The position numbers and the translations under genes are program-made. The notes beneath the pieces were generated by a model. The model was not told where the DNA came from, ran no database searches, and saw nothing but the letters and a program-made list of their open reading frames with translations. DNA of 52,865 bases. Origin: Myxococcaceae bacterium. Its GTDB lineage: Bacteria; Myxococcota; Myxococcia; Myxococcales; Myxococcaceae. Numbering within the stretch: position 1 is the stretch's first letter; every line of letters begins with the position of its first letter. Below are positions 34,306 to 52,865 of this stretch, piece after piece. The stretch covers positions 1-52,865 of the forward strand of contig JAIBBR010000017.1 of NCBI GenBank assembly GCA_019694575.1, given 5' to 3'.

Positions 34306-34351
34306 TTGACACTCGGTAAGTGGGGTGAATGAATGTTCACTCTTTCCCCAC
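34306..34351 (+). promoter_or_regulatory. Putative promoter and overlapping hairpin of the envelope-protein operon
   Basis: A consensus -35 box TTGACA is at 34306-34311; a weak -10 (ATGAAT, 34329-34334) follows a 17-base spacer. The same region folds as a hairpin: GTGGGG (34320-34325) with CCCCAC (34346-34351), and inside it GTGAA (34325-34329) with TTCAC (34336-34340). A ribosome-binding site AGAGGG precedes the GTG start at 34382. Overlap of promoter and palindrome suggests repressor binding. Confidence 0.45.
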
Positions 34352-34381
34352 ACTTACGATTCAAACCAAAGAGGGTGTCAC

Positions 34382-35176: not shown

Positions 35177-35204
35177 CTTTCAACCTTCAGCGATAAAGGG
35201 AACC

Positions 35205-36386
35205 ATGAAAACGCTCAAATGGAGTGTCTCTAGTTTGCTGTTGGCGATGGCTGCGTTCGCGGCTGAACCGGTGGTGACGAAAGAAGCGACCGGCGAAGCG
35301 GCGATTGTCGGTTCTGACGAACAGAAGGCCTTCGAAAAGGCCAAAGACGCGGCGCTGCGGTTGGCGGTTGAACAGGTCGCCGGCGTGCAGATCGATGCTG
35401 ACTCGGCGACGGTGAACTCGGTGCTGGTGCGCGACGCGGTGTATGCCAACACCACCGGCTACGTGAAGAAGTACGACGTGGTCAGCAAAAAGAAAGAAAA
35501 GAACGTAATGATCGTCACGGTGCGTGCCGACATTGGCACCGCCGAGCTAGACAAAGACATCGCCGCGGCCAAGGCGCTGATCAAACGTTTCGGTCGGCCG
35601 TCGATCATCTTCTTGATTCAAGAGCAGGCGATTCAAGTCGTCGCTGACAAGGGTGCGGTGACCACCAGCGATCACACCGGGGTAATTCTGTCGAACGCCT
35701 TCAAGGCCGACGGGTGGGACGTAAAAGACGCCGCGTTCGCCAACGGCAAGGTGAAGCTGGCCGCGGGCGCTACGTTCGGTGCGGCTGAAGCCAAAGAAGT
35801 CGGTGACATCAGCAAGGCGGCGTACATCGTTTATGGCAATGTGATTATTCGCCACCAAGACCCCGGCTCCATGGGGGCCAGCCCTTCAGACGGTAAGCAG
35901 GTGTTCTTTCCCGTCACTGGCGAGTATGACTTGACCTTGTTTGCCACGGCTTCGGGCAGCGTGATCTCCAAGGTGTCGGGCAAGCTGACGATGGACCCCA
36001 ACATCAGCCGCAAGGCGACGTTGTCGTACGAGCGCACCGCGATGGAAGTGATTGAGCGTCAGAAGAAAGAGATCGTCGACTCGATTCGCAAAGGCGCCCT
36101 CGAGTTCTTCCGCAACAACCAGATGAATGGGTCGAGCTTCGTGGTGAACGTGGCCAATGTGGCTGACTTCGCGTTTGCCAAAAAAGTGAAAGCCTCGCTG
36201 CAAAACATCAAGGGCATGAAGGAACTGCAGCAAGAAGACTTCAAGAGCAACAAGTTGCAGCTCAAGGTGACGTACTTGGGTACACCCTCTGACTTGGCCG
36301 ATGCGCTGGAAAACACCAGCATCGATAAGAAGAAGGTCAGCGTCACCGGAGTGACGGCGAACAGTCTCGACATGGGCTTGAAGTGA
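35205..36386 (+). CDS. FlgT-like periplasmic protein
   Basis: 393 residues with a signal peptide (MKTLKWSVSSLLLAMAAFA). The N-terminal domain (about 20-115) shows the FlgT-N pattern GEAAIVGSDEQKAFEKAKD AALRLAVEQVAG-like, with a conserved tract of small residues and ending in a beta strand (MIVTVRADIG). The middle and C-terminal parts alternate helices and strands as in FlgT, which stabilises the H ring of Vibrio flagella. No flagellar genes are in the window, so this is a FlgT-fold protein in another setting. Ribosome-binding site AAAGGG. The stop overlaps the start of the next gene (GTGA). Confidence 0.7.
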   Translation: MKTLKWSVSSLLLAMAAFAAEPVVTKEATGEAAIVGSDEQKAFEKAKDAALRLAVEQVAGVQIDADSATVNSVLVRDAVYANTTGYVKKYDVVSKKKEKNVMIVTVRADIGTAELDKDIAAAKALIKRFGRPSIIFLIQEQAIQVVADKGAVTTSDHTGVILSNAFKADGWDVKDAAFANGKVKLAAGATFGAAEAKEVGDISKAAYIVYGNVIIRHQDPGSMGASPSDGKQVFFPVTGEYDLTLFATASGSVISKVSGKLTMDPNISRKATLSYERTAMEVIERQKKEIVDSIRKGALEFFRNNQMNGSSFVVNVANVADFAFAKKVKASLQNIKGMKELQQEDFKSNKLQLKVTYLGTPSDLADALENTSIDKKKVSVTGVTANSLDMGLK

Positions 36387-36730
36387 AGTGGGTGTGGGTA
36401 GCGGCCCTGCTCACAGGGTGCGCTGCTCAGCAACCGGGCTCGATGAACGCGCAGCTCGAAAAGGGGCTGCGCGACTGGGCGAAGCGGGCAGGTGAATTGA
36501 AGCTGCGCTGTACCCCGCCTGACGCTGAAGTGTTGATCGACGGTTTTTCAGTGGGCCCGTGTCACCAGTTCGAAGGTAAGCCGAAGGGGTTGACGCTGTC
36601 GAAAGGCATGCGGCAGGTGGTGGTGAAGAAGAGCGGGTTCTTGCCGTACTTTGGTTATGTGGACTCAGACGGAACGATGGCTGCTCTCACCATTGAGCTC
36701 GTTCCGCAAACAGTAGGGAGCGCACAGTGA
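36383..36730 (+). CDS. Small lipoprotein with PEGA domain
   Basis: 115 residues. The lipoprotein signal VWVAALLTGC puts the lipidated cysteine at about residue 13. A PEGA-type beta domain follows (KLRCTPPDAEVLIDGFSVGPC, then SKGMRQVVVKKSGFLPYFGYV), with a likely disulfide between the two cysteines. PEGA domains often mediate contacts at the cell surface or peptidoglycan. The GTG start overlaps the stop of the FlgT-like gene and its own stop overlaps the FecR gene start, so the three are translationally coupled. Confidence 0.78.
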   Translation: MKWVWVAALLTGCAAQQPGSMNAQLEKGLRDWAKRAGELKLRCTPPDAEVLIDGFSVGPCHQFEGKPKGLTLSKGMRQVVVKKSGFLPYFGYVDSDGTMAALTIELVPQTVGSAQ

Positions 36731-37458
36731 AACGCACGCTTTTGACCGCCGTGATGTTGTTCGCCTCGTTGGCTTGGGCTGACATTGGTAAGATCACCGT
36801 CGTCGACGGTTCAGCCACCCGCGCGCCGAAAGGCGGCCAGGCCGAAGCGTTGAAGGTCGGCTCTTCGATTGAGCTGGGCGACACGCTTGAGGTGGCGAGC
36901 GGCAACTTGAAGCTGCAGCTCACCGACGAGAGCGTGATCATACTGGGGCCGAAGAGCAAGCTCGAGATCACCGAGGCTGAATTCGAAGGGCAAGAGCGCA
37001 AAGGTTTTTCGGCGCTGCTGTCCGGAGGCAGCTTGTGGACCAAGGTGAAGAAAGCGTTGGGCGGAGCGAAATATGAAGTGAAGACCGAGCGCGCGGTGGC
37101 CGGTGTGCGGGGCACCATTTTTCGCATTGATGCTGACCAACTGGTGAAAGCGGCGAAAACGGGTGGAAAAGCGAGAACAGCTTCGGTGGTGCGCGTGGTC
37201 GACGGTGTGGTCAACGTGCGGCCGACCGACGCGGTGATCAAGGCCTCCAAAGGGCAGAAAGCAGCGCCCAAACCCAAAGGACCTCGCGTTCAAGTGGCGG
37301 GCCCACAAGAAGTGTCGGCCGATGAATGGGAAAAACGCTTTGTCGATTTGCAGAAGAACGCGCAAGTCGTGGTCGGCATCGACCTGTGGGAGCAAGCTGA
37401 ATTTGAGCAATCGGCCAAGGCAGACGCTTTTGCGAAGTGGGTTGAAAAAAACCAGTGA
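36727..37458 (+). CDS. Secreted FecR-domain protein
   Basis: 243 residues. Signal peptide MKRTLLTAVMLFASLAWA, then a FecR domain (about 20-140) with the marker segment TERAVAGVRGTIFRID. The C-terminal 100 residues are lysine-rich and helical. There is no transmembrane anti-sigma region, so this is the periplasmic-domain-only type, thought to bind or organise envelope polymers rather than control a sigma factor. GTG start in a GTGA overlap with the PEGA lipoprotein gene. The stop overlaps the next gene. Confidence 0.82.
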   Translation: MKRTLLTAVMLFASLAWADIGKITVVDGSATRAPKGGQAEALKVGSSIELGDTLEVASGNLKLQLTDESVIILGPKSKLEITEAEFEGQERKGFSALLSGGSLWTKVKKALGGAKYEVKTERAVAGVRGTIFRIDADQLVKAAKTGGKARTASVVRVVDGVVNVRPTDAVIKASKGQKAAPKPKGPRVQVAGPQEVSADEWEKRFVDLQKNAQVVVGIDLWEQAEFEQSAKADAFAKWVEKNQ

Positions 37459-38666
37459 GCGAGCCGGCGGCACCTGCACCAGGGGCGGGCGCGATAGTCA
37501 GCCCTGATTCAACTTCGTCACCGCCACCGGTGGTTGAGACGTTGCTCGTTTCGCCCGCGGGTACTCCTTTCACCCGAGACGAAAACGAAGGGCTGATGGA
37601 GCAAGACGCGAGGCGTGTCGATTTTACCTGGGCCGCGTCGATGGTGGCCGGTGTCGCGCTCGTCTTTTTGTTTCTTTCGCAAGTGCGTGGCGTGGCGGTG
37701 CCGGTGGTCTTCTCGCTGGCAATTGCCTACGCGCTGAACCCAGCAGTGACTTACTTAGAGAAGAAGGGCATCAAGCGCACGTTGGGTACGGTGTTGGTGT
37801 TCGCTGCCGGCGTGATGTTGCTGTTCGGCTTCGTGATGTACCTGATACCCGTTGCCACCGAACAAGCCGACAAGCTGCCCGAGTTTTTTAAGCAGGCGAG
37901 CACGCAGCTCTTCCCTTGGGTCGAAACGCAGTTTGGCATTTCAGTGCCCGAGCTGATTCGTGAGCGCACCGCCGAAGTGGGCCATGAAGCTGCCAACTTG
38001 GCGACGCAAGTGGGGCCTGCCGCTGCGAAAATGGTGGCGTCATTCGCAGGTACCACGGCCAGCGTGGTGGCGGCGGTAATGGGCTTGCTCTTCGTGCCGG
38101 TGTTGACGTTCTTCTTTCTCGCCGACTACCCGCAGATCGTCGATCGCATGCGCGGGTTGCTACCGCGTCGCTCGCTGGCGCTGGTGAGCAAGCGTTTCGC
38201 GCAAGTCGACGAGGTGCTCTCGGCGTTTTTGCAGGGGCAGGTCACGGTGGGAGCGATTTTGGCGGTCATCTATTCCACCGGGTTCTCAATCGCCCGTATC
38301 GACATGGCGATCGTGATTGGGCTGCTCACCGGTATCGGCAACATGGTGCCGTACTTGGGCACTGGCATTGGGGTGGTGGCGTCGCTCGCCGCACTGGCGC
38401 TCTCGTGGCAAGGGCCATGGCAGTTGGTGGTGATCGCCGGTACCTTCGTGGTGGCGCAGGTGCTCGAGGGGTTGGTGATTACCCCTCGTATCGTGGGTGA
38501 ACGGGTTGGCTTGCCTCCGGTGGTGATCATTATCGCCGTGCTCGCATTTGCCGAGCTGTTTGGCTTTTTGGGGGTGCTGCTCGCGGTACCCGCGACGGCG
38601 GTTCTCAAAGTGGCGTTGAACGCGGTGATCTTTCGCTACCGGCGCACCACGCAATACGCCGGGTGA
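37455..38666 (+). CDS. AI-2E-family (PerM/YdiK) membrane transporter
   Basis: 403 residues. After a disordered Pro/Ser-rich N-terminus of about 50 residues, hydrophobic segments occur near 58-75, 78-95, 108-130, 200-225, and a cluster from about 265 to 385. This is the layout of the AI-2E transporter/PerM family (DUF20), with the typical long loop between the third and fourth segments. Some members export autoinducer-2, others move ions or support Na+/H+ exchange; the substrate cannot be told. The GTG start overlaps the FecR gene stop (GTGA). Confidence 0.88.
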   Translation: MSEPAAPAPGAGAIVSPDSTSSPPPVVETLLVSPAGTPFTRDENEGLMEQDARRVDFTWAASMVAGVALVFLFLSQVRGVAVPVVFSLAIAYALNPAVTYLEKKGIKRTLGTVLVFAAGVMLLFGFVMYLIPVATEQADKLPEFFKQASTQLFPWVETQFGISVPELIRERTAEVGHEAANLATQVGPAAAKMVASFAGTTASVVAAVMGLLFVPVLTFFFLADYPQIVDRMRGLLPRRSLALVSKRFAQVDEVLSAFLQGQVTVGAILAVIYSTGFSIARIDMAIVIGLLTGIGNMVPYLGTGIGVVASLAALALSWQGPWQLVVIAGTFVVAQVLEGLVITPRIVGERVGLPPVVIIIAVLAFAELFGFLGVLLAVPATAVLKVALNAVIFRYRRTTQYAG

Positions 38667-39743: not shown

Positions 39744-42700
39744 ATGCGCCGAACCCTCACCATTGCACTGTTGATGTTGTCTTGGGCCGCAGTGGCTCAA
39801 AAGAAAGAAGCGAAAGAAGCCGACCTCGGCAAGAAAGAGACGTCGGTCGCTCCCGACAAAGGCCTTGCCGGCGATGTCACTCGCAAGAAAGTCAACAAAG
39901 ACGAGCTCGCGCCGTCGTTGAAATACGACGTGTTTCGCATGACCGTCGAGTCGCAGGTGGCGGGCAAGCGGCAGGAGCAGATTAATGATCTCACCAAGAT
40001 CATTTCGCTGACGACCGACGAAAAAGAGCGCCCCAAGCTGCTCTTTCGGTTGGGCGAACTGTTTTGGGAAGAGTCGAAATACAAGTTCTTTCAGGCCAAC
40101 CGCAAAGACGACGACTACATCGCGGCGATGAACCGGCAAGACAAGGCCGGCATGGAGCAGGCGAAGAAAGAAAAAGAAGCGCTGCTTGGCGAGAGCAAAG
40201 AGAACGCCAAGCTGGCCGTCGATCAGTATTCAGAGATCGTTCAGAAGTACAAAGACTTTCCCCGTAATGACGAGGTGCTCTATTTCCTCGGGCAGAACTT
40301 GATGGAAATGGGCGACGAACGGCGCTCGCTCATTTCGTACAAGCGGCTGATCGAAAAGTACCCCAAGTCGAAATACCTGCCCGACGCGCACTTGGCCTTC
40401 GGCGAGTACTACTTCAACAATTCGAAGGGTAAGCGCGACTTTCTCGACAAAGCGCTCGAGTCGTACACCAAGGCCGCGGCTTACCCCGACAACGCGGTGT
40501 ACGGCTTTGCGATTTACAAACAGGGTTGGTGCTACTTCAACATGGCCGACTACGAGAAAGCGATGGACCGCTTCAAGTCAGTCGTGCTGCTCGAAGATCT
40601 GCTCGGTAAAGAAGAAACCGAAGGCGGCAAAGGCAAAGGCGGCACCACCGCGCGGGCGGGTCTGATCAAAGAAGCGCGCACTGACTACGTTCGCGCCTAC
40701 AGCCGTGTGCCGAGCGGTACGCCAAGCGAAGGCAAAGATCGCTTCGCCCGTCTTGCCAAGAAGCCCGACGACTTGCGCGTGATGATGAAGCAGCTCTCGG
40801 GGCTTTATTACGAAGACGGCAAAGATAAAGAAGCCGCGGTGGGCTACAACATGCTGATTGTCGAGCGGCCTACGTCGCCCGAGGCGCCCGGCTTTCAGAG
40901 CAAGATCGTCGACTGTGTGCTCCGTGCGGGCAACAAGTCGATGACCGTTCAACAGGTGCGTCGCCTGGTGAAAATCATGAACGATGTGAAAGACGCGGTG
41001 AAAGACGAGAAAGATCGCAAAGCGATCGATGAAGCGCGCGAGCTCTCAGAGCGCATTTTGTCGAACTTGGCGGTCAACTGGCACAACGAGGCGAAGAAGA
41101 CACGCGACGACGAGACCTTCAAGTTCGCCGACATGGTTTACGCCGACTACCTGACGCTCTTTCCCGAGAACCCCAAGGCGTACGATTTGCGCTTCTTCTG
41201 GGCTGAATTGCTGAACGACAATTTGAACAACTACCCCAAGGCCGCCGAGGAATACACCAAGGTGCTGATGCAAGACGTCAAGCGCATCGAGGGTGGCGAG
41301 AAGAGCGAAGATGGCAAAAAGAAGGCGGGTAAGCCCGGCAAGTTCATGGTCAACGCCGCGTACAACGCGATTCTCGCCTACGACGAGGTGGTGAAGAAGG
41401 CCACCACCGAGGGCAAGATCAAGATCGAGACCACCAACGACCCCGACAAGAAGCTGACGATTCACCCCGAAAAATTGGCGTTGCTCGAAGCGTGCGAGCG
41501 CTACCTCAAGTACGTGCCCAATGGCGATAAGCGGGTCGAGATCTCGTACAAAGTGGCGAAGATTTATTACGACTACAACCACCTCGATGAATCGACCGCG
41601 CGCTTCAAAGATCTGGCGCTCAAGAACAAGACCTACAAGTTCGAGAATGGCGACAAGGTCTGCGTGCTGGCGGGTAACTTGGCGCTCGACGCGTACAACT
41701 TGCGGCGTGATTTCGCCGGCATCGTCACCTGGGGGCAGAAGCTGCTCGACGAGGGCGCCTGCGAAGACAAGCAGTTCGCCACTGACTTGGCGGTGTTGAT
41801 TCCGAAGACGATCTTCAAGCGCATCAACCAACTCGAGGCGAACAAAGACTTCTGCCAAGCCGCCGACGAATACATGGCCTTCGCCGAGAAGTACGAGAAG
41901 CATGAGCTGGCCGACAAGGCGCTCTACAATGGCGCGATCGACTTCTTCAATTGCCGCAAGCTCGACAAGGCGATCGAAACCCGGAAGAAGTTGGTGACCA
42001 ATTACCCTAAGTCACAACATGTGCCCGCCACGTTGTTTGCCTTGGCTGAAGGGTACGAGGCGATCGCCGACTTCGACAACGCTGCCGACTACTACGAGCA
42101 ATATGCCCATGAGTACGAGAAGAGCATGGGGGGTGGTGCAAAACCAAAGAAGACTGCCGCCAAAGGCAAGAAGGGCGATAAGGACAAAGACAAAGCGCCC
42201 AAGGCCGACGGCGAGCAGGTGTGGGAAGAGTCGAAGGCTCAAATAGCGCTCTTCAACTCAGGGGTGTTTCGCGAAGGGTTGAGCCAGTTCAAGAAGGCGC
42301 TGGCCGACCGCGAGAAATATCTGCAGCTGTGGCCTGACTCGGCCGATTCAGAAGCGGTGCAGCTGTCAATTGTCGATTTGCTCGAGAAGAGCCAGGCCTA
42401 CGCAAAGGCTGCCCGCGGGCTTGAAGACTACGAGAAAGACAAGAAAGTGAGTCGTTCGCCTTCGAAAATTCTGACCGCCGAAGGCCGCATCGCCAGCATT
42501 TTCGAAGAGAAGATGAAGAACAAGAGCGGGGCGCGCAAAGTGTATGAGCGCATTTTGAAGTACCACGAGAACTTGCCCAAGAAGGCCAAGGGTGACCTCG
42601 AGATCACTGCGCTCGACGCCGTGGCCCGCGCGCACTTCGTGACCAGCGAAGATCAATACAAGAAGTACACCGGCATCAAAGTGCGGTGGAGCAAGCTGAC

Positions 42701-43340
42701 CAACATCGGCGAGTTTAAAAACAGCGTGAAAGAAAAGGCCAAGGCGCTCGAAGGCATTCAGAAGTTGTATACGGTCACCGTCGGCTTCAAGTCGGCTGAC
42801 CCGGCGATCTGCGCGCTCGACAAAATTGGCAAAGCGTATGATCACTTCTCTGACGCGTTGCTCAACGTGAAGCCTCCCAAGGGCATGCCTGAAGATCTGA
42901 TGGTTGAGTTTCGCTCGCAGCTCGACAACGAAGTGTTGCCGATCAAGACCAAAGCGTCTGAAGCGTTCATGGCCGCGGTGGCCAAGAGTCAAGAGCTCGA
43001 CGTCTATAATACCTGCACCACTGAAGCGCTCACCGCGCTGCGTACCAAGTACAAACCAGAGCAGTTTCCCGCGCGCGCCGAAGACGTGTTGGACCTGAAG
43101 ATGGACGGCAAAGCCGTGCCCGCCATTGGTGGCGACATGTTGTTGGCAATTCAGAACATTCCCGTCGCGCCGACGGCCAAGCCAAAAGAAAAGAGCGACG
43201 GCAAGAACGTGGCTGAAATCGATTTGTCGGCCACTCCGAGCAAAGAAACGTCGGTGGCGCCGTCGAGCCCCAACAACAGCGGCAAGGGGGCTGAGAAAAA
43301 GAAAAAGGGTGGCAGCGAAGAACCGGACGAGCCCCTATGA
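39744..43340 (+). CDS. gltD: Gliding motility protein GltD/AgmU-like, periplasmic TPR protein
   Basis: 1198 residues, very near M. xanthus AgmU. Signal peptide MRRTLTIALLMLSWAAVAQ from the ATG at 39744 with a good ribosome-binding site; the in-frame GTG at 39711 would mask it. The rest is a long solenoid of TPR-like helical hairpins (about 85-1130) rich in Lys, Asp and Tyr, with Lys/Glu-rich inserts near 290-320, 530-545 and 795-820. A short motif KETSVAP occurs near both ends (31-37 and 1167-1173). The tail ends acidic (EEPDEPL). In M. xanthus, AgmU/GltD is a periplasmic component of the gliding motor. Assignment rests on size, architecture and gene order. The stop overlaps gltE (ATGA). Confidence 0.78.
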   Translation: MRRTLTIALLMLSWAAVAQKKEAKEADLGKKETSVAPDKGLAGDVTRKKVNKDELAPSLKYDVFRMTVESQVAGKRQEQINDLTKIISLTTDEKERPKLLFRLGELFWEESKYKFFQANRKDDDYIAAMNRQDKAGMEQAKKEKEALLGESKENAKLAVDQYSEIVQKYKDFPRNDEVLYFLGQNLMEMGDERRSLISYKRLIEKYPKSKYLPDAHLAFGEYYFNNSKGKRDFLDKALESYTKAAAYPDNAVYGFAIYKQGWCYFNMADYEKAMDRFKSVVLLEDLLGKEETEGGKGKGGTTARAGLIKEARTDYVRAYSRVPSGTPSEGKDRFARLAKKPDDLRVMMKQLSGLYYEDGKDKEAAVGYNMLIVERPTSPEAPGFQSKIVDCVLRAGNKSMTVQQVRRLVKIMNDVKDAVKDEKDRKAIDEARELSERILSNLAVNWHNEAKKTRDDETFKFADMVYADYLTLFPENPKAYDLRFFWAELLNDNLNNYPKAAEEYTKVLMQDVKRIEGGEKSEDGKKKAGKPGKFMVNAAYNAILAYDEVVKKATTEGKIKIETTNDPDKKLTIHPEKLALLEACERYLKYVPNGDKRVEISYKVAKIYYDYNHLDESTARFKDLALKNKTYKFENGDKVCVLAGNLALDAYNLRRDFAGIVTWGQKLLDEGACEDKQFATDLAVLIPKTIFKRINQLEANKDFCQAADEYMAFAEKYEKHELADKALYNGAIDFFNCRKLDKAIETRKKLVTNYPKSQHVPATLFALAEGYEAIADFDNAADYYEQYAHEYEKSMGGGAKPKKTAAKGKKGDKDKDKAPKADGEQVWEESKAQIALFNSGVFREGLSQFKKALADREKYLQLWPDSADSEAVQLSIVDLLEKSQAYAKAARGLEDYEKDKKVSRSPSKILTAEGRIASIFEEKMKNKSGARKVYERILKYHENLPKKAKGDLEITALDAVARAHFVTSEDQYKKYTGIKVRWSKLTNIGEFKNSVKEKAKALEGIQKLYTVTVGFKSADPAICALDKIGKAYDHFSDALLNVKPPKGMPEDLMVEFRSQLDNEVLPIKTKASEAFMAAVAKSQELDVYNTCTTEALTALRTKYKPEQFPARAEDVLDLKMDGKAVPAIGGDMLLAIQNIPVAPTAKPKEKSDGKNVAEIDLSATPSKETSVAPSSPNNSGKGAEKKKKGGSEEPDEPL

Positions 43341-44935
43341 GCGAGCACACGACGACCATGAAGAACATTCACCCCATGAACCGGTTTCTCGCGCTTATTT
43401 TCGCTGCGCTCGCCCCGCTGACACTCTTGGCAGGTTGCAAGACCAGCTCGGCGGCCTCTGACGTCAGTGTGGGCGGCCCTCGTGAAGCCACGGCCGACAA
43501 AAAGGGCGGCGCCAAAGAGCCCAACCAGACCGCGACCGAAGTGGTGCCGCAGGTGAACACCAAGGCCAAGCTGGCCTTTGAAGACGCCACCAAGACGCTC
43601 GAGGCGCAACGCAAGAGTGGCAAGTACGACTACCCCGCGCTGGAAAAGAAGTTTCAGTCGGCGGCCGACGCAGACAGCCGGCTCGCTGAAGCGACCTACA
43701 ACTTAGGCGTGTTGGCCGAGCGCCAGGGCAAAACCAAAGAGGCGATCTCACTCTACAAGTCGGCGCTCAAGTCGAGGCCTTCGTTGCATCAGGCGGCCGA
43801 GAACTTGGCGGTGATCGCTCAGAATTCAGGCGACGAAGCGGGAGCGGTCGAGATTTACCAAGACATTTTGCAAAAGTACCCCGACGACGCAGGCAGCCGG
43901 GCGCGGCTGGCTGAAATTTACCGCCGTCGTGGCAATTTAGATCAAGCGGTGGCTTTGGCGCGCGAGGCGCTCTTCCGTGAGCCGCGCACCTTGCAAGCGT
44001 ACAAGGTGATGATGCTCGCCTATTACGAGCAAAAACAGATGTCGATGGCCAAGCTGGTGGCGTTGCGCGCGGTCAAGCTCGACGAGAATGACCCCGAAAT
44101 TTATCACACGCTCGGGCTGATCAGCCTGGAAGAGAAGGACAAGCCCCGAGCCCGGGTGCAGTTCAAGCGCGCTGTGCAGGCGCGGCCCGACTATCTGCCG
44201 TCGCATTATCAACTGGCGAAGATGGCGCTCGAGCAAGAAGACTACGCTGGTGCTGAAGAGAGTATTCGCCGCATTCTGCAGGCCAACGGGCCCACGGCTG
44301 AGCTGCTGGTGAACTTGGGTGTCGCGTACAAGGGCACTGGGCAATATGACAAAGCGCTACAGGCATACGACGAAGCGCAGAAGCTGAACTCAGCGCTGCC
44401 GGCGATCTACCTGAACAAAGGTGTGATCATGGCGGTGAAGCAGCAGCCCGAAAAGGCGCTCGAGCTTTACAAAACGTACATTCAAATGTCGGGTGGCGAG
44501 ACCGCGGTGTCAGCCGAGCACCCTGTTTTTGAAGAGATTCGCAAGCAAGAAGCCGTGCTCGCCAAGCGTGAAGAAGACAAGAAGGCCGCCGAAGAAGCGA
44601 AGAAGATGGAAGAAGAAATGAAGAAGACTGAAGACGCGGCCAAGGCAGCCGAGCGCGCCAAAAAAGAAGACGAGTTCAAGAAAGTGCAGGACAGCGCGAA
44701 GGGTAAGGGCAAAGAGAAAGACGATGGTAAAGGCGCAAAAGACAACAAAGAGACCAAAGACGCTGATGCCGCCAGTGCCGACCCCGAGCCTGTGACTGAC
44801 AAAAAAGAAGACCCGAAGAAGAAGAAAGAAGAGAAGAAGAAGGTTGAACCGGCTGCTGCTCCCGTTCCGGCGGCGGGAGCTCCAGCGGCTCCGGCCAAAA
44901 AGAAGCGTGAAGACGAGCCTGACGACGCGCTGTAG
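43337..44935 (+). CDS. gltE: Gliding motility TPR lipoprotein GltE/AglT-like
   Basis: 532 residues. A lipoprotein signal (LTLLAGC) puts the lipidated cysteine at C34 if the ATG at 43337 is used; later in-frame ATGs at 43358 and 43376 would give a more usual signal length. About seven or eight TPR units span 85-390 (for example LAEATYNLGVLAERQGKTKEA and PEIYHTLGLISLEEKDKPRA). The last 130 residues are low-complexity Lys/Glu, ending REDEPDDAL, like the gltD tail. In M. xanthus, AglT/GltE is an envelope TPR protein needed for gliding motility. It overlaps gltD by 4 bases and so is coupled to it. Confidence 0.8.
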   Translation: MSEHTTTMKNIHPMNRFLALIFAALAPLTLLAGCKTSSAASDVSVGGPREATADKKGGAKEPNQTATEVVPQVNTKAKLAFEDATKTLEAQRKSGKYDYPALEKKFQSAADADSRLAEATYNLGVLAERQGKTKEAISLYKSALKSRPSLHQAAENLAVIAQNSGDEAGAVEIYQDILQKYPDDAGSRARLAEIYRRRGNLDQAVALAREALFREPRTLQAYKVMMLAYYEQKQMSMAKLVALRAVKLDENDPEIYHTLGLISLEEKDKPRARVQFKRAVQARPDYLPSHYQLAKMALEQEDYAGAEESIRRILQANGPTAELLVNLGVAYKGTGQYDKALQAYDEAQKLNSALPAIYLNKGVIMAVKQQPEKALELYKTYIQMSGGETAVSAEHPVFEEIRKQEAVLAKREEDKKAAEEAKKMEEEMKKTEDAAKAAERAKKEDEFKKVQDSAKGKGKEKDDGKGAKDNKETKDADAASADPEPVTDKKEDPKKKKEEKKKVEPAAAPVPAAGAPAAPAKKKREDEPDDAL

Positions 44936-45224
44936 TGTTGAACCGCTACGTCACCCGTCGTTGCTTCGGCTCAAAAAGCATTTTCGCGGCCAAGCGGTGG
45001 AATCGCTTGAACCACTGTGAAGTGCAGTTCACAGGGGGCTTGATGCAGAAGACGCGAAAGAACGGGGTGTTAAGCGCGTGTCAACTGGGTGCGTTTTGTG
45101 CAGTCAGGTATCGCACCATGTCGCACGCGTGGCTCGTACCCTTACCCACCTGGCGCGTTAACACTCGACGAGGCAGTCTGCGGTGGTAGCATTGCCAACA
45201 TCTTTAAGGGGCTTCGGAGGTTGC
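44936..45224 (+). promoter_or_regulatory. Intergenic region with 20-base inverted repeat upstream of gltF
   Basis: CTGTGAA (45015-45021), a 6-base spacer and TTCACAG (45028-45034) form a perfect inverted repeat. It resembles a CRP/FNR-type site but the TGTGA and TCACA halves are 8 bases apart rather than 6. No ORF in the region looks real. The gap implies that gltF and the genes after it can be transcribed separately from gltDE. The ribosome-binding site CGGAGG precedes gltF by 4 bases. Confidence 0.5.
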
Positions 45225-45476
45225 ATGAAGAAGCTTTTCATTTCGGTCATTTTTCTCTTCGCGGTCAGCGCCTTTGCCCAAGACAAGAAGGGTGAGGGCA
45301 ACGTTCAGTACAAGAAGACGACTGAATTCAGCTTTGAGGACGACACCATCGAAGGCGATCTCACCAAGCCCGACGGCGAATACGTCGAAGCGCGCAAAAA
45401 GGTGAAGCATTCCAACCTGATTCGCATTCGTGAAGAGTTCAAAGACAAAGTCATGCAGTCGGTAGGTGAGCTTTAA
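45225..45476 (+). CDS. gltF: Small secreted protein in the gltF position
   Basis: 83 residues from the ATG at 45225, with a strong ribosome-binding site (CGGAGG). A signal peptide MKKLFISVIFLFAVSAFA is followed by a short charged domain with FEDDTIEGDLTKPDGEYVEAR and a helical end (IRIREEFKDKVMQSVGEL). No fold is named. The call as gltF comes from its size, export signal and position between gltE and gltG, which mirrors M. xanthus, and not from a recognised domain. The start at 45183 lacks a signal peptide and is rejected. Confidence 0.68.
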   Translation: MKKLFISVIFLFAVSAFAQDKKGEGNVQYKKTTEFSFEDDTIEGDLTKPDGEYVEARKKVKHSNLIRIREEFKDKVMQSVGEL

Positions 45477-45536
45477 GGGTTTTGCGACGGCGCTCGGGTA
45501 GGAACTTGAAGCGGGTGCCGGTGTCTAAAAAGGGGT

Positions 45537-45560
45537 GAGCTGACTTTCAGCTCGAGGTTT
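45537..45560 (+). terminator. Hairpin between gltF and gltG
   Basis: GAGCTGA (45537-45543) and TCAGCTC (45547-45553) pair perfectly around a CTT loop, followed by GAGGTTTT. It could be a weak terminator/attenuator or a leader hairpin just upstream of the gltG ribosome-binding site TAGGAGG. Confidence 0.45.
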
Positions 45561-45575
45561 TAGGAGGCGTACACC

Positions 45576-47477
45576 GTGGGCGTTCCACTGACGTTGAAGG
45601 TCTTCAAGGGCGACCAGTTGTTGGCGTCTAAAGAGTATGACCGCGACATCATCAAGATCGGGCGTCTCTCGTCGGCGCACTTATGCCTCGATGACGAGAA
45701 AGTCTCGCGCATTCACTCCGTGATTGAAGTCAGCCCCGACGGCAATCTGTCGATCATCGACATGGGCAGCGTCGAAGGTACTTTCGTCAACGGCAAGCGG
45801 GTGAACAAAGGAACGCTGGCGCTGGGTGACGAAATCAAAGTCGGTAACACGACGATCAAGGTCGAAGGCACGCAGCCTGTGGCTTCGGTAGCTCCGGCTA
45901 TCGCTCCCGTGGGAGGGCCTGAAGCCGTCACCGCGCAGCACAGCATGCCGTCAGATTACGCGTCGCAACCCACTGCGGTAGGGCCGATGCCGACCGCCGC
46001 CGCGCCCGCGGCTGCCACGGTGATCACTCCGCCACCAGCGCCTGCTCCCGTGGCTGCTGTCGCCAAGCCGGTACAAGACGAGAGCACCGGGCAGGTGGTT
46101 CGAGGTCGCCCGCGCCGCCGCAAAGGGGCAGGCCCGTTGGGGCTCGAAATTCGTTTGATGTGGGGCGATCAAATGGTCGCCAGTCACTTCATTGCCCCTG
46201 ACAGCAAAAAGTCGTTCTTTGTCGGGTCGGCCGCGGGAGTCGACTTTGCGATGGGCGATGGCCGCTTGGGCGGGCCGAAGTTTGAAGCGGTGCGCATGGA
46301 AAACGGCCAAGCCACGGTGCGCTTTACCAGCAAAATGAAGGGTGAGCTGCACCGCACCCAGAGCGATCAGACAATCTCGCTCAAAGACGTGATTGAAAAG
46401 CGCATCGCTTCTTCTGAAGGTGAAGGCTACGCGCTTACCGTGCAGTCTGATGATTTCGTGTGGGTCGACTTGGGTGGCGTGGTGATGGAGGTGTTCTTTC
46501 AACCCGTGCCCAAGGCCGTGCTCGTGCCGTTGAGCGAGTCGATCGATTTCACCGCGCTCAACATTTTTTTGTTGATGTTCTTCGTGGGTGCGGTGTTCGT
46601 GATCAGCGCGATCAACCGAGGGCTCGAAGGCGACGAGTTCGACGACGAGCTCAATGGCAACAACGCGCGCATCGCTAAACTGATCATCAAGCCTCCCGAA
46701 CCGAACAAGCTGGTGGCGGCGCTGCAGAAGAAAAAAGAGTCGGGTGAAATGGCCCAGAAACACAAGGGCGACGACGGCCAGATGGGCAAGAAAGAAGCGC
46801 CCAAGCGTTCAGCACATGCGGCACCCAAAGGCGACCCGAACAACAAAGACCAAGCGCGCATGTTGGTTCAGAAAGTGTTCGGCGGTAACAGCGGCGGCAT
46901 CTCGACCATCTTCGGCCACAACGGCTTGGGCGGTGAATTGAAGGCGGCGATGGGTAACATGTTCGGCGCTGCGCCTGGTGACGCGGCGGGTTTTGGCGGG
47001 TTGGGCTTGCGCGGCTCGGGTTCTGGCGGCGGTGGTCTGGGTGACTCCATCGGTATCGGTGGCATTGGCACCAAGGGCCGTGGTGGCGGCACCGGCGGCT
47101 ACGGTTCGGGCGTGGGCGTGCTCGGCGGCAAAAAAGGCGTCGACATTGGCATCGACTCTACTGACCCGACCGTGGTCGGCTCGCTCGACAAAGAGCTCAT
47201 TCGCCAGGTGATCAAACGCAACATCGGTCAGATTCGTTATTGCTACGAGTCTGAGCTCACCCGGTCGCCGAAACTGGGGGGCAAGGTGTCGATCAAGTTC
47301 GTGATCTCGGCGTCGGGCAGCGTGGCGCAATCGAGCGTCGCCGACTCGAGCATGAACAACGCCACCGTTGAAACCTGCGTCGCGGGTCGGGTGCGCACGT
47401 GGCAGTTCCCGAAGCCGAAGGGCGGCGGCGTGGTGATCGTCACTTACCCGTTCGTCTTCAAGCAGTCGGGCGGGTAA
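45576..47477 (+). CDS. gltG: Gliding motility protein GltG/PglI-like: FHA, transmembrane helix, TonB-like C-terminus
   Basis: 633 residues from a GTG with ribosome-binding site TAGGAGG. Domains in order: FHA phosphopeptide-binding domain (about 6-98, with GR 29-30, SRIH 44-47 and VNG 71-73); Pro/Ala-rich linker; a second beta domain (about 185-315); one transmembrane helix (about 326-347, ALNIFLLMFFVGAVFVISAI); a Gly-rich spacer (about 455-520); and an AgmX/PglI-type TonB-like C-terminal domain (about 535-633). This is the layout of M. xanthus GltG (PglI), which spans the inner membrane and links the cytoplasmic motor to periplasmic partners. The FHA domain could bind phosphothreonine made by a Ser/Thr kinase. 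A hairpin follows the gene. Confidence 0.87.
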   Translation: MGVPLTLKVFKGDQLLASKEYDRDIIKIGRLSSAHLCLDDEKVSRIHSVIEVSPDGNLSIIDMGSVEGTFVNGKRVNKGTLALGDEIKVGNTTIKVEGTQPVASVAPAIAPVGGPEAVTAQHSMPSDYASQPTAVGPMPTAAAPAAATVITPPPAPAPVAAVAKPVQDESTGQVVRGRPRRRKGAGPLGLEIRLMWGDQMVASHFIAPDSKKSFFVGSAAGVDFAMGDGRLGGPKFEAVRMENGQATVRFTSKMKGELHRTQSDQTISLKDVIEKRIASSEGEGYALTVQSDDFVWVDLGGVVMEVFFQPVPKAVLVPLSESIDFTALNIFLLMFFVGAVFVISAINRGLEGDEFDDELNGNNARIAKLIIKPPEPNKLVAALQKKKESGEMAQKHKGDDGQMGKKEAPKRSAHAAPKGDPNNKDQARMLVQKVFGGNSGGISTIFGHNGLGGELKAAMGNMFGAAPGDAAGFGGLGLRGSGSGGGGLGDSIGIGGIGTKGRGGGTGGYGSGVGVLGGKKGVDIGIDSTDPTVVGSLDKELIRQVIKRNIGQIRYCYESELTRSPKLGGKVSIKFVISASGSVAQSSVADSSMNNATVETCVAGRVRTWQFPKPKGGGVVIVTYPFVFKQSGG

Positions 47478-47515
47478 GCGTCACTTCGGCGCGCGAAGAG
47501 CACCACGAAAAGGGG

Positions 47516-47553
47516 GGAGCCACCCCCGTGAAGGAAGGTGGCTCCTCATATTT
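47516..47553 (+). terminator. Hairpin terminator or attenuator after gltG
   Basis: Perfect 9-base arms GGAGCCACC (47516-47524) and GGTGGCTCC (47537-47545), 12-base loop, then TCATATTTG. The T tract is imperfect, so read-through to the next gene is likely. Confidence 0.6.
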
Positions 47554-47576
47554 GATTGCGCTAGGGTCTCTCGTCC

Positions 47577-48266
47577 ATGAAGCGACTTGTCTTGCTGGTG
47601 GGGTTTGCCGTCTCTTCTGTTTCCTTCGCCGCTGAGACGTCATCAACGCGGTTGATCGAAGACAAGAAGGCGCCCACTTACAACGAGATTGAGCGAGGCT
47701 TTCACATTGGCCTCACCGCGGGCGCGTTCTTCATGATCAACGCGCCTACGGGCGCCCCAACGGGTGACATTCTTACCCACGGTTGTTCGGCCGAAGCGCT
47801 CGAGGCGCGCAACCGGAGGGCCCGGCCGTTGTCAGCGGGTCAGTCGGCGCAAGTTGAAATGGGGTACGACTTTGGCGAGCGGGTGTCGGTGGCGTTGTCG
47901 CTCACCAGCACCCGAAATGGCGCCAGCGCTGACTTTTTGGGTTTTTCAAAGTGCAATGACCCTGTTGCCGGCGATTTTTCGGCGCTCATTCCCGGTCTTT
48001 CGGTGCGGGTCAATTTGGTGGGGTTCAATGACAGCCAAGAGGTGAAGCGTACGTGGATCTACGTCAAGGCCGGCGGTGGTTACGCGATCATGTCACCCAG
48101 CGCGATGTTCAACTCGGGTGACGTGTTTCTGCACGCGGGGGTGGGCGTGTTGTATTTCACCAAGTTGCGCCATTTTTCGATTGGCGTTGAAGCGACGGGC
48201 AATTTCCTCGCCCTGACGGGGACTATTGGGTTTGCCATCACGCCCAGTCTTCGCTACGCGTTCTAG
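47577..48266 (+). CDS. gltH: Outer-membrane beta-barrel protein in the gltH position
   Basis: 229 residues with a signal peptide (MKRLVLLVGFAVSSVSFA). The body has about eight amphipathic beta strands, including GFHIGLTAGAFFMI and FSIGVEATGNFLAL, and ends in a C-terminal phenylalanine (SLRYAF), the usual signal for the BAM complex. This fits a small outer-membrane barrel. M. xanthus has such barrels (GltH and others) in the outer-membrane part of the gliding machine. Assignment is from fold and gene order. A weak ribosome-binding region precedes the ATG. It lies directly after the gltG hairpin and 2 bases before the next gene. Confidence 0.7.
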   Translation: MKRLVLLVGFAVSSVSFAAETSSTRLIEDKKAPTYNEIERGFHIGLTAGAFFMINAPTGAPTGDILTHGCSAEALEARNRRARPLSAGQSAQVEMGYDFGERVSVALSLTSTRNGASADFLGFSKCNDPVAGDFSALIPGLSVRVNLVGFNDSQEVKRTWIYVKAGGGYAIMSPSAMFNSGDVFLHAGVGVLYFTKLRHFSIGVEATGNFLALTGTIGFAITPSLRYAF

Positions 48267-48268
48267 GC

Positions 48269-49939
48269 ATGGACACACAAGGCAGGAACGGCCGCGGACA
48301 CAGCGGTGGCCGTGGAGACGGTGGCAATCGCCGTGGCGGCGAACGAGGGAAAGGCAAAGGCGGTCGCCGTACAGATCGTGATCGCCAGGGCCGCGGCCAA
48401 GAACGTGACGATCGCGGCGGTGCGGCGTTTCGCGTACTTCAAGATCTCGGTGCCATCGAGAAAGCGTTGACCGCGAAAAATTTTACCGAGCAGAAGTCGC
48501 CGCTCGAAGCGATTTTGCGCGCCCTGCGCCCGTTGAAGCTGAAGTCGATTGACGAGCTCGATCTCAACACCCGTGGGCGAATGATTACGACGTTGGCCCG
48601 AGTGGCGCGTCAACCAAAGCCTGAAGGGGTTGAGGCGCCGGAGGCAAAGACGGCTCCAGTTGCTGAAGCTGCCCCGGCAGAATCTGCGCCGGTGGAAGCC
48701 GCGGCTCCGAGCGAAGCGCCTGCTGATGCAGCTCAAAGCGATGCGCCTTTCGCAGCTGAAGTGACGGCGACACCTGTCGAAGGCGAAGCAACTTTGATCA
48801 TGACTGAAAGTGCGGCGCCGGCAGTGGCAGAAACTGCGCCGAGCAAGCCAGCGCATGCTCCGGTAGACCCTAAACTGCGGGCGTACCAAGACGTGATGCA
48901 CTTGGTGGGCTCCATTTGGCGTTCAGTGGGAGACACGCACCGCGCGGCGTCGGCCTTTGCCTCGAGCGGTCGGCCATTCGAAGAGCGCGAAGCGGTGAAG
49001 ACGTTTCAGAAGTCGGGAGACTGGCGAGATGAAGCGTCTGCGCTCGAGCAGCAAAAGCGCACCCGCGACGCAGCCAAAGTTCATGAGAAGCACCAGTCGT
49101 TTGTCGACGCGGCCCGGCTTTATGAGGCAGGGGGCGACTTGAAGAGCGCGTTACGTGTCGCGGCGGCAGGTAAAGACGAAACGTTGGCGAAGCGGTTGAT
49201 GCAAGGGTTGCCTCTGGCCGAAGTGGCGTTGGCCCTCGAAAAAGCCGGCGCGTGGGAATGGTTGATGGCCTTTCACGTCGAGCACAAGCAGTTCGACGCG
49301 GTGGCCAAGCTCTACGAGCGCGCGCGACAGTTTGATCAAGCCGCGGTCGCATGGGAGCGCTCGGGTAAATTTTCATTGGCGCGCAAGGCCTATGAGCGGG
49401 CGAAAGACTCGACGGGCGCGGCCCGGGTTCGTGATCTCGAAGTGGGCAAGTTGCTCGAGCGCGGCGATCGGTTGGGCGCTGCGACGTTGCAATTGGGCGC
49501 CGGCATGAAAGACGCGGCCGTCGAAACGGTAAAAGCGATTGGCGGCGTGAAAGCGTTTCGCTTTTTGCAGAAGCTGAAGCTCGACGAGCAGGCGGTGTCG
49601 TTCGCGAAAGAAGAGATCGCCAAAGCAGAAACGGCGAAGCAGCCGGGCGAGCGTGCCCGTTGGCTCGAGCTGCTGGGTGATGTCGCGGTGGCGGCTGAAG
49701 CATGGCTCGAAGCCGGCCGGGCTGATCGCGCGCTCGCACTTTTTGAGCAAGGCGGCATGTGGGCCAAGGCCGCACCTTTGGCTGAAAAATTGGGCGAGCT
49801 CGATAAAGCCGAAGCGCTTTTTCACCGTGCCGGCGACAAAGACAGCGCCAGCCGGGTAAAGGCATTGCCGCGCGTGCCCGAGGCATCTTTGAGCCCGGCG
49901 GCGAGCGAGCCCGTTTCACCGCCTCCTTCGGTGGTTTAA
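48269..49939 (+). CDS. Helical-repeat protein with Arg/Gly-rich N-terminus, gliding cluster
   Basis: 556 residues, no signal peptide or membrane segment, so probably cytoplasmic. The first 50 residues are very rich in Arg and Gly (RNGRGHSGGRGDGGNRRGG and similar), like RGG boxes that bind RNA or other polymers. A helix-containing region (about 52-110) and an Ala/Pro/Glu-rich linker (about 115-205) follow, then an alpha solenoid of TPR-like units (about 206-530). It starts 2 bases after gltH, so it belongs to the same transcript. In M. xanthus one or more less-studied genes lie between gltH and gltI; I cannot say which matches. Confidence 0.75.
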   Translation: MDTQGRNGRGHSGGRGDGGNRRGGERGKGKGGRRTDRDRQGRGQERDDRGGAAFRVLQDLGAIEKALTAKNFTEQKSPLEAILRALRPLKLKSIDELDLNTRGRMITTLARVARQPKPEGVEAPEAKTAPVAEAAPAESAPVEAAAPSEAPADAAQSDAPFAAEVTATPVEGEATLIMTESAAPAVAETAPSKPAHAPVDPKLRAYQDVMHLVGSIWRSVGDTHRAASAFASSGRPFEEREAVKTFQKSGDWRDEASALEQQKRTRDAAKVHEKHQSFVDAARLYEAGGDLKSALRVAAAGKDETLAKRLMQGLPLAEVALALEKAGAWEWLMAFHVEHKQFDAVAKLYERARQFDQAAVAWERSGKFSLARKAYERAKDSTGAARVRDLEVGKLLERGDRLGAATLQLGAGMKDAAVETVKAIGGVKAFRFLQKLKLDEQAVSFAKEEIAKAETAKQPGERARWLELLGDVAVAAEAWLEAGRADRALALFEQGGMWAKAAPLAEKLGELDKAEALFHRAGDKDSASRVKALPRVPEASLSPAASEPVSPPPSVV

Positions 49940-50124
49940 CAGGCGCCAATAGTAGGCAAGAAAAGCGACGCGCACCTGGGGCGATTGGCCGAAAGGAGCG
50001 CCCGCTACAGATCTGTGCGTCGCCAAGTGGAAACAGGGAAAGTCCGGTACCTGCGGGAGCCTGAAAAACCATGAGGTTTCGCGTTCTTATTTCGGGGCAA
50101 CAGAAGTAGATTTCGTGCGCCTCC
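49940..50124 (+). ncRNA. Structured leader before the gltI-like gene (candidate cis-regulatory RNA)
   Basis: A long imperfect hairpin spans 49965-50023. The outer stem pairs 49965-49975 with 50015-50023 (nine pairs, 2-base bulge). Inside, CTG/CAG and GGGCG/CGCCC pair (49976-49983 with 49999-50010), closing on CC-GAAA-GG, a GNRA tetraloop (49989-49996). A second small hairpin AAACC/GGTTT is at 50066-50079. A CAGG/CCTG pairing is possible between them. No T tract follows, so it is not a plain terminator. No Shine-Dalgarno is seen before the ATG at 50125. I could not match it to a known riboswitch class. Confidence 0.45.
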
Positions 50125-52865
50125 ATGAACGTCAAGACCGTCGAAAGACCCTTCGCTGCTGTCGAGGCCGCGCTCGAAAAGTCAGGCCTCGTCGAAGACC
50201 AACTGCGCCTCTATGAAGCGCGCTCGCGCGAAGTGCCGAGCACGCAAGAAGCGGGGTGGCTGTTGGCCCGGGCTGGCGAGCTCGCGCGAGATCGTCTGAA
50301 GAACGCGGTTCGGGCCGAAGAGCTGTTTCGGCGTGCGCTCGTTTATGCACCTGCTTCGAAAGAGGCGCTCGAGGGTTTGCGTGCGCTCTACGAGCAACGG
50401 CAAGACCATGGGGCCTTGGCTGAAATTCTCGAACGGTTGGCGGGTACCCAGACGGGCCCGGCTGCAGCGGCGCTTTACCTGCGCGCGGCCGATCTGCATG
50501 AGAACAAGCTCGGTCGAAAAGATCGCGCGGTGTTGTGCTGCCAGCTGGCGACCAAGGCGGCTCCGCAAGAACGCCCAGCGTTTGGGCGCGCGCGCAAAAT
50601 TTTGTGGTCTGAGAGCCGTTATAATGCCGTCTTCGATTCACTCGAGCGCGAACGCGCCACGTTGGGTGAGCGCGAGCTGATTGAAGACTATTTGAAGTTC
50701 GCCGAGAGCCTGGCCGATGATCCGCATCAGCACCCGCTGGCCGAGTTGGCCCTGCAGCGGGTGCTCTCGGTCGACGCCACCAACGCCAAAGCGCAGGCGA
50801 TTCGCAGCGCGATGCAGACGTTGGCGCAAGACTGGGCGACCAAGGTCAAACAGCTTCGGCACGCGTCACTCGAAGAACGTGATCGCCGCGCCGCCGCGCG
50901 TATTTCACTGCAGGTGGCGAAGCTCTATTCGTTCTATGAGCCCACCGCGGTTGGCAAGATGAAAGAAGCGCTTGATCGCTGCTTTCTGCTCTGGCCAGCG
51001 ATGCCCGACGCCGTCGAGGTCTTGGAGCAGGTGGCGGGCAAGAGCGGCGATTTCAAAGCGGCGATCACCGTTTTTTCACGCCTGGCGGCCGCGACCAAAG
51101 ACAAGGGCGCGCAAGTCGACCTCTGGCTGCGGGTGGGCACCATTCACTTGGCGCGGCTCAATGACCCCGCCGCGGCGCTCGAGGCGTTTCTTAAAGCAGC
51201 GAGTCTCGATGTGACTCGGGGCGATGCCGCCGGTCTGGCCGCCGAGCTGCTCATCGAAAAGGGAAAAATCGAAGAAGGCGTGGCGCTGCTTGAAAAGTAC
51301 CTTGCCACGCTGAAGCTGAAATCGTCGCAAGTGGTGATGCACCTGCGGCTCGCCGACTTGTGGATCGCCCAGGGTAAAAACCCCAAGGGCGCGCGCCGCC
51401 ACCTCGAAGCGGCGGTGCGCCTTGAGCCTGCCAATGCTCACGCGGCGTTTCGTTTGGTGCGGGCGCTCGCCGATGCCGGCGAGCTCGAGTCGCTCTGGTT
51501 CTACCTCGAATTGGCGGCGTCAGCCCCGCGCCCAGCCGAAGAGCGGGTGAAGTTCTGCGTCGATGTGGCAGGCCAGTTTGAAAGGGCCAAAGACTATGAG
51601 CGCGCGTTCTACGCGCTTTCATATGCGTTGCCGTTAGACCCTTCGCGCAAAGGGCTGGTGCACGCGCTGATTGAAATGGCCAGCAAAGCGCAGCTCGAGC
51701 CGGCGCTGGCGGTCACCTTGCGACGCGCGGCCCAGGTCGACGACGGGCCGAACGCCGTGCGGTTGTGGCGCGAATTGGCCAAGCTGCTTTCGGGCGGTGG
51801 TGTCTCTAAGCAAGTCGAAGCCATGGAGGCATGGCTCGAGGTTGAACGCCGTTCGCCGCAAGACAAAGAGGCGACCGCGGCGATTGCGCTGCTCAAAAAG
51901 TCTATCACCCAAGACCCGACCGACCCCCGCACCAAGCTCGAAGCTGAAGCACGCAAGCTCGAGGTGGCGGCGGCCGACCCCGCGGCACAGGCGGCGGTGT
52001 ACCGGCAGATTCTCGAGCTCGACCCGAACAACGTCGTCACCTTGAAAAAACTGGGCGGTGCGTGCGCCAGCCTTTCGCAATGGGGCGAAGTGGCTTTCGT
52101 CGCCGAACGCTTGATGGCACTGGCTGAATCTACCGCTGATCGCCAAGAGTGGCGCGCTCGCTTGGCACAGCTTTACGCCGAGCGGTTGAACCGCAAAGAA
52201 GAAGCGGCCGGGTTGTATTTGAACCTGCTTCACGAAGGTGTCGAGAACGCGGCGGTGGTGGGCAGCTTGGAGCGCTTGGCCTCACAGGGCATTCGCCAAA
52301 TAGAGATCTCGCGTGCGCTCGCTCCGTACTACGCGAAGAGCGGCGACTACCAGCGGCAGGTGGCGTCGCTTTTGGTGCAGCTGGCTTCGGTGCAAGAAGT
52401 CGATGGGCAAAAGGAGCTGCTCACCATTCTCGCCGAGACCAGCGAAAAACGTTTAATGGACCCTGAGGGAGCGTTCAACTTTCGCCTGCGCGGGTTGGCG
52501 CTCACGCCCGATGATTCTACATTTCGCGCCGAGGCCATTCGGCTCGCTCGTGAACATTCGGCGCATGGGCAAATGTCGCGGGTGCTTTCAGAGCTCGCGG
52601 CGAAGAGCAGCGATACGGCGCTGGCTGCTTCACTGTTGCAAGACGCCGCGGTGGTCGCCGAGCAGGGCGGAGCAATCGATGACTCTGCGGCGGCGCTCAA
52701 AGCGGCGCTGGCGCAGAACCCTGCTCACCTCGAAAGTCCGGCGCAGTTGTCAGAACTGTACCTGCGCCACAAGCGCTTTTCTGACTGCGAACAGGTCTTG
52801 CGTCAACGCGCGACGGTGGTGCCCGACCACGAGAAGTCGCGCATTTATTTGCAGTTGTCTGAGGT
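50125..52865 (+). CDS. gltI: Large TPR protein in the gltI/agmK position (3' end outside window)
   Basis: The frame opens at the ATG at 50125 and has no stop to the right edge, giving 913 residues of a longer protein. It has no signal peptide. It is a continuous alpha solenoid of TPR-like hairpins, for example YLRAADLHENKLGRKDRAV near 115-133, DLWLRVGTIHLARLNDPAAAL near 332-352 and LRLADLWIAQGKNPKGARRHL near 408-428. In M. xanthus the gene after this position in the cluster, agmK (gltI), encodes a cytoplasmic TPR giant of several thousand residues. Position, lack of export signal and repeat type agree; the full length is unseen. The start has no Shine-Dalgarno and follows the structured leader. 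Confidence 0.72.
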   Translation, partial: MNVKTVERPFAAVEAALEKSGLVEDQLRLYEARSREVPSTQEAGWLLARAGELARDRLKNAVRAEELFRRALVYAPASKEALEGLRALYEQRQDHGALAEILERLAGTQTGPAAAALYLRAADLHENKLGRKDRAVLCCQLATKAAPQERPAFGRARKILWSESRYNAVFDSLERERATLGERELIEDYLKFAESLADDPHQHPLAELALQRVLSVDATNAKAQAIRSAMQTLAQDWATKVKQLRHASLEERDRRAAARISLQVAKLYSFYEPTAVGKMKEALDRCFLLWPAMPDAVEVLEQVAGKSGDFKAAITVFSRLAAATKDKGAQVDLWLRVGTIHLARLNDPAAALEAFLKAASLDVTRGDAAGLAAELLIEKGKIEEGVALLEKYLATLKLKSSQVVMHLRLADLWIAQGKNPKGARRHLEAAVRLEPANAHAAFRLVRALADAGELESLWFYLELAASAPRPAEERVKFCVDVAGQFERAKDYERAFYALSYALPLDPSRKGLVHALIEMASKAQLEPALAVTLRRAAQVDDGPNAVRLWRELAKLLSGGGVSKQVEAMEAWLEVERRSPQDKEATAAIALLKKSITQDPTDPRTKLEAEARKLEVAAADPAAQAAVYRQILELDPNNVVTLKKLGGACASLSQWGEVAFVAERLMALAESTADRQEWRARLAQLYAERLNRKEEAAGLYLNLLHEGVENAAVVGSLERLASQGIRQIEISRALAPYYAKSGDYQRQVASLLVQLASVQEVDGQKELLTILAETSEKRLMDPEGAFNFRLRGLALTPDDSTFRAEAIRLAREHSAHGQMSRVLSELAAKSSDTALAASLLQDAAVVAEQGGAIDDSAAALKAALAQNPAHLESPAQLSELYLRHKRFSDCEQVLRQRATVVPDHEKSRIYLQLSE

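Follow-up and report, generated by a model that had tools for sequence, protein, structure and literature searches.

The closest described counterpart of the locus reported here is the Agl/Glt gliding machine of Myxococcus xanthus, which is encoded by the clusters G1 (MXAN_4870-62), G2 (MXAN_2538-41) and M1 (MXAN_6862-60). Its AglR, AglQ and AglS proteins comprise 245, 162 and 194 residues, respectively (PMC3169522), and GltI and GltG have been placed in an intracellular scaffold that couples the motor to MreB (2026 review, PMC13104615). Within G1, the slot between gltH (MXAN_4866) and gltI (MXAN_4863) is filled by MXAN_4864/65, that is, agmV. According to Luciano et al. 2011 (PMC3169522), a transposon insertion in agmV was recovered in an M. 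xanthus gliding screen, and MXAN_4864/4865 (agmV) were set aside as likely pseudogenes; this may be why AgmV is absent from current lists of Glt proteins. M. xanthus vesicle preparations were also reported to contain peptides of AgmV (MXAN_4865) (PMC4158809). Among the 20 literature matches listed, of 32, for agmV, MXAN_4864 and MXAN_4865, in a collection covering few subscription journals, these two papers are the only Myxococcus reports.

The window, i.e. the whole stretch of DNA that was analysed (52,865 nucleotides), is contig C15 in its entirety, and its right edge is thus a contig end. It belongs to a 5.28 Mb assembly (220 contigs, 98.9% complete) from an organism of the same family as Myxococcus, which is the sole representative of its genus in the set of genomes compared. 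A run of seven open reading frames, all on the forward strand, occupies positions 39744-52865 at the right-hand side of the window, about a quarter of its length, and holds the same genes as M. xanthus G1 in the same order. The reading proposed here, to which a probability of roughly 0.9 is given, is that this organism has the G1 and G2 gene sets, the AglRQS motor and CglB-like proteins, and that the RG-rich gene in the gltH-gltI interval is a genuine one whose product would act as a cytoplasmic scaffold. An ORF check recovered all seven products listed in a preliminary description of the window, with the places and sizes given there.

The first gene, gltD (agmU; 39744..43340, +), encodes an exported TPR protein of 1198 aa with the signal peptide MRRTLTIALLMLSWAAVAQ and a TPR_6 match at 8e-15. 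GltD is without an NCBIfam model and was identified via the Myxococcus gene in the same place (L048), with which it shares 50.5% identity over 1209 columns. It is followed by gltE (aglT; 43337..44935, +), which codes for a TPR lipoprotein with the lipobox LLAGC and scores 569 bits against NF033758 gliding_GltE (cut-off 225); its annotated start overlaps the gltD stop, and an alternative internal ATG near 43373 is possible. The small secreted protein of 83 aa encoded by gltF (cglF; 45225..45476, +) reaches 128 bits against NF033764 gliding_CglF (cut-off 90), and the 633-aa product of gltG (pglI; 45576..47477, +) 928 bits against NF033760 gliding_GltG (cut-off 650). GltG consists of an FHA domain (2e-15), one transmembrane segment near residue 328 and a TonB_C-like / AgmX-PglI tail, and is 63% identical over its full length to GltG of M. 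xanthus AM003, the strain used as the M. xanthus reference throughout, while paralogues match it only partially. The next gene, gltH (cglE; 47577..48266, +), encodes a small outer-membrane β-barrel of 229 aa with 138 bits against NF033755 gliding_CglE (cut-off 70). With GltE, CglF, GltG and CglE all above their equivalog cut-offs, the gltD-E-F-G-H arrangement is, judged from the profiles, not one of chance. Both the order D-E-F-G-H-RG-I and the strand are kept in each of the 34 named loci, up to the limits of the respective contig. The order of M. xanthus gltD-E-F-G-H...I, which the preliminary description had recognized, is thus borne out by four NCBIfam equivalogs together with GltD (~50% identity) and a GltI fragment (~47%).

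The RG-rich gene (48269..49939, +; 556 aa) starts 2 nt beyond the stop codon of gltH in the window and encodes an RG-rich α-solenoid protein. The earlier report of such a protein stands, and its being left there without a known counterpart does not, as it can now be matched to the agmV slot. It is equated with MXAN_4864/65 by position, in a comparison made with AM003 and not with the DK1622 record: the sole ORF in the gltH-gltI slot of AM003 (L070:3251-5119) is 55.6% identical to it over the repeat domain. In contrast to the two published locus tags, the slot holds a single open gene both in the window and in AM003.

Sequence prediction finds neither a signal peptide nor a transmembrane segment in the RG-rich protein, whose layout is that of an RG-rich N-terminus, a helical pair, an Ala/Glu/Pro linker and a C-terminal helical-repeat solenoid. 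Arginine and glycine make up 60% of its first 52 residues (the family mean is 65% in the comparable stretch). AlphaFold predicts this N-terminus to be disordered, followed by a helical region (52-113 and 201-233, with a disordered linker between) and a long, confident α-solenoid at 252-531 (pLDDT about 95). A profile search with the repeat domain gave a match to IFT122 (E 4e-6), and IFT-A chains rank first in the fold search, at TM-scores not above 0.24 and identities of 13-19%. The repeat class is one that the protein has in common with the IFT-A subunits (IFT122, IFT140, IFT144) and with other TPR/COPI-like solenoids, whereas the WD40 domains of the IFT-A subunits are absent from it. Because the TM-scores are low, the similarity to IFT-A was rejected as evidence of descent, and only the TPR-type solenoid fold class is supported; nor is function to be read from this resemblance.

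In the proposed mechanism, the RG-rich protein would be a cytoplasmic TPR-like α-solenoid that acts alongside GltI as a scaffold on the cytoplasmic side of the complex, and its disordered RG-rich N-terminus might provide multivalent contacts. Its position, its predicted fold class and the screen hit in M. xanthus point to AgmV as a soluble partner in the GltI/GltG scaffold, and the balance leans, if modestly, towards AgmV being a genuine but overlooked component of the motor, i.e. a cytoplasmic RG-rich TPR-like solenoid working with GltI that was added in the Myxococcus family. If AgmV takes part in gliding, the published parts list of the M. xanthus motor lacks one soluble scaffold protein, for which room has to be made in structural models. 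It has to be noted that the vesicle detection of AgmV sits poorly with a cytoplasmic protein, and that the agmV insertion, being upstream of gltI, could act through polarity.

A phylum-wide search with the repeat domain alone as the query found this domain in 89 Myxococcus-family genomes. In all 77 family genomes with the listed hits for gltG and for the RG-rich gene on one contig, the RG-rich gene lies downstream of gltG on the same strand, at a median distance of 1,693 bp. Loss of the gene in the six family genomes that gave no match was considered and rejected: in G092, gltJ is found ~12 kb into its contig, and therefore a contig break at gltI is likelier than loss, and the remaining genomes are for the most part incomplete and have a weak or truncated gltG. 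Some family genomes (G080:C966, G085:C366) have a second GltG above 1,000 bits, which suggests that gltG of the gliding type was duplicated recently. A very small metagenome-assembled genome of the Myxococcus family, of about 2.7 Mb (G144; L059, WRKR01000007.1), retains the entire order gltD-I, RG-rich gene included, carries gltC, gltB and gltA elsewhere, and may represent a minimal set of gliding genes. In the family of G161 (L121, L051), the glt cluster is split, with gltG and gltJ ~56 kb apart on one chromosome.

No match to the repeat domain was found in the Anaeromyxobacter-like family, and the RG-rich gene is therefore not universal to glt machines. In that family, gltC is located directly upstream of gltD, and ~8 kb lie between gltH and gltI; one member (G031, L053:17257-18960) has, just upstream of gltI, a dTMP-kinase-like N-terminus fused to alanine-rich repeats. 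More distant homologues of the RG-rich gene (E 1e-34 to 1e-52) occur in the families f4 and f7-f10. In four genomes of these other families that were examined, the homologues lie away from recognizable glt genes and no common glt-related neighborhood was seen, and those of the other homologues that could be assessed do not share a contig with gltG. Most simply, the RG-rich gene would have entered the gliding cluster in the Myxococcus family. Proteins that bind RNA often have RGG-rich tails, and this, along with the location of the distant homologues in neighboring families away from glt genes, would suit a gene that is real and unrelated to gliding, such as an RNA-binding housekeeping protein carried in the operon. 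Such a role is possible and yet unlikely, since the gltH-gltI slot is kept in every assessable Myxococcus-family genome, the gene follows almost immediately upon gltH in the window, and agmV was hit in a screen for gliding (PMC3169522).

The last ORF of the window (50125..52865, +), a TPR ORF cut at the contig end, is the N-terminal ~913 codons of gltI (agmK), a gene of roughly 4,100 codons when whole. This fragment is 47% identical to residues 93-979 of a Myxococcus GltI, and a 1396-codon ORF that lacks its 5' end, on contig C217, matches residues 2774-4169 at 61% identity; from these alignments it follows that C15 and C217 flank a gap of ~1,800 codons inside gltI. The missing middle was not found in the 220-contig assembly, in which nothing turned up beyond these two fragments except a paralogue of 27% identity on C84; the N-terminal ~913 and C-terminal 1396 codons that are seen contain no stop. 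Directly after the gltI C-terminus on C217 comes gltJ (agmX), with 532 bits against an NCBIfam cut-off of 450, the zinc-ribbon region of which matches the solved AgmX domain 7zok (3e-16) and the GYF region 7z3c (6e-36). The expectation that gltJ would be found just past the window was therefore right, with the amendment that the break falls inside gltI instead of just before gltJ.

The other parts had been expected elsewhere in the genome, and there they are; the absence of aglRQS and gltABC, which would have spoken against the assignment, is thus not observed. On contig C199, gltB-A-C stand in a row with a divergent gltK, at 58, 53, 67 and 39% identity, respectively, to their AM003 counterparts, and GltC exceeds its NCBIfam equivalog cut-off. 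The motor genes aglRQS lie on C192 in R-Q-S order and are 74, 63 and 68% identical to those of M. xanthus, which were picked as the MotA/ExbD/ExbD triplet whose lengths of 245, 162 and 194 aa agree exactly with the published ones. The G2 layout and the three-gene motor are thus common to both organisms, most products being 39-74% identical. A second motor-like triplet (MotA and two ExbD), distinct from AglRQS, is present on C159 of this genome (L115) and in AM003 (L117), is conserved at 59-67%, and in its M. xanthus copy follows an apparent topA. Two paralogous Cys-rich VWA lipoproteins resembling CglB are encoded on C63 (L176:917-2338) and C47 (L174:1070-2398); they are 45% and 33% identical to an M. 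xanthus VWA lipoprotein with 419 residues and 17 Cys, in contrast to the single match in AM003. From its size and place in the genome, the latter is taken to be CglB. Another candidate for M. xanthus CglB, L171, was rejected, as the reciprocal search led to the 419-residue lipoprotein.

For each of the 14 genes of G1, G2 and M1, at least a portion is hence present, and the sequence available is free of internal stops. It is the recovery of these genes on other contigs that supports the claim of the preliminary description that the organism has the trans-envelope core of the gliding machine, and with a nearly complete Agl/Glt gene inventory, the middle of gltI being unseen, that claim gains support at the level of gene content, which in itself does not prove gliding. 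By homology to M. xanthus, AglRQS in the inner membrane would turn proton flow into motion, and GltG and GltJ, both of which cross the membrane once and have a domain in the cytoplasm and a tail in the periplasm, would relay the force to the periplasmic GltC, GltD, GltE and GltF and to GltA, GltB, GltH and GltK in the outer membrane, at which CglB would grip the surface. This would extend a known machine to an uncharacterized genus with a comparatively small genome.

In comparison with M. xanthus, the genome is smaller and gltI is spread over two contigs with its middle unseen, and the genes of the machine might conceivably be degenerate or put to a non-gliding use in a small-genome lineage. 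Core Glt/Agl complexes are described from bacteria without reported gliding (PMC3169522), and the assembly contains no unbroken gltI. Set against these points, which leave degeneration or another use improbable, are the 14 genes that were at least partly found and lack internal stops where seen, and the inclusion among them of gltH, gltI, gltJ and gltK, which have been described as specific to myxobacterial gliding.

A gliding assignment for the cluster has also to be set against the related machines of myxobacteria, several clusters of which may occur in one organism. Counterparts of three M. xanthus glt-like paralogous clusters were observed in this genome, on C200 (L122), C8 (L124) and C164 (L123), the one on C200 (43-57% identity) probably being nfs (spore coat). 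Nfs and the other paralogue clusters have homologous GltD/E/G/C-like cores, at much lower identity to the window genes, and no match to the RG-rich gene was found in them. It is highly improbable that the window cluster is itself one of these machines, such as Nfs. The products are far closer to the M. xanthus G1 copies than to the paralogous clusters, so that the best matches stay within the Glt family: for GltD, identity falls from 50.5% against G1 to at most 28% against paralogues, for GltE from 52 to 31% and for GltF from 64 to 33%. Moreover, GltE, CglF, GltG and CglE lie above cut-offs set for the gliding equivalogs, gltH, gltI and gltJ are present, and the genome has its Nfs-like cluster at another place, on C200.

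The coding status of the RG-rich gene was assessed across the family. Each of the 34 named loci, AM003 included, has the frame open (32 complete and 2 running off the contig start). Over 13 pairs, the third codon position is the most variable (by ~3 to 8 times the first and second positions between close relatives), and dN/dS is 0.10-0.26, i.e. the gene is under purifying selection; the repeat domain is 52-63% identical between the window and other genera. That the ORF is non-coding or a pseudogene remnant, as proposed in 2011 for MXAN_4864/65 (PMC3169522) and as might be argued from its being in large part low-complexity sequence and from the long spurious ORFs that arise at high G+C, is already contradicted by the open frames, the third-position excess with its low dN/dS and the identity across genera, and is scarcely credible on such sequence data. 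The RG-rich gene is, by these measures of sequence, an intact and strongly conserved gene in nearly every Myxococcus-family member, and it is a genuine extra gene of the gliding cluster. For the model organism, this means that a gene amid the best-studied gliding cluster, once set aside, has been conserved under purifying selection family-wide.

Upstream of the seven-gene run, the window contains a short run of envelope genes (34325-37458) encoding proteins with LPP20-like, FlgT_N-like, PEGA and FecR domains, which is followed by an AI-2E family permease (37455-38666); none of these genes has a known link to gliding. Farther upstream, at 29897-31720, lies a full-length homologue of peptidase M2, the angiotensin-converting-enzyme family (E 5e-220).
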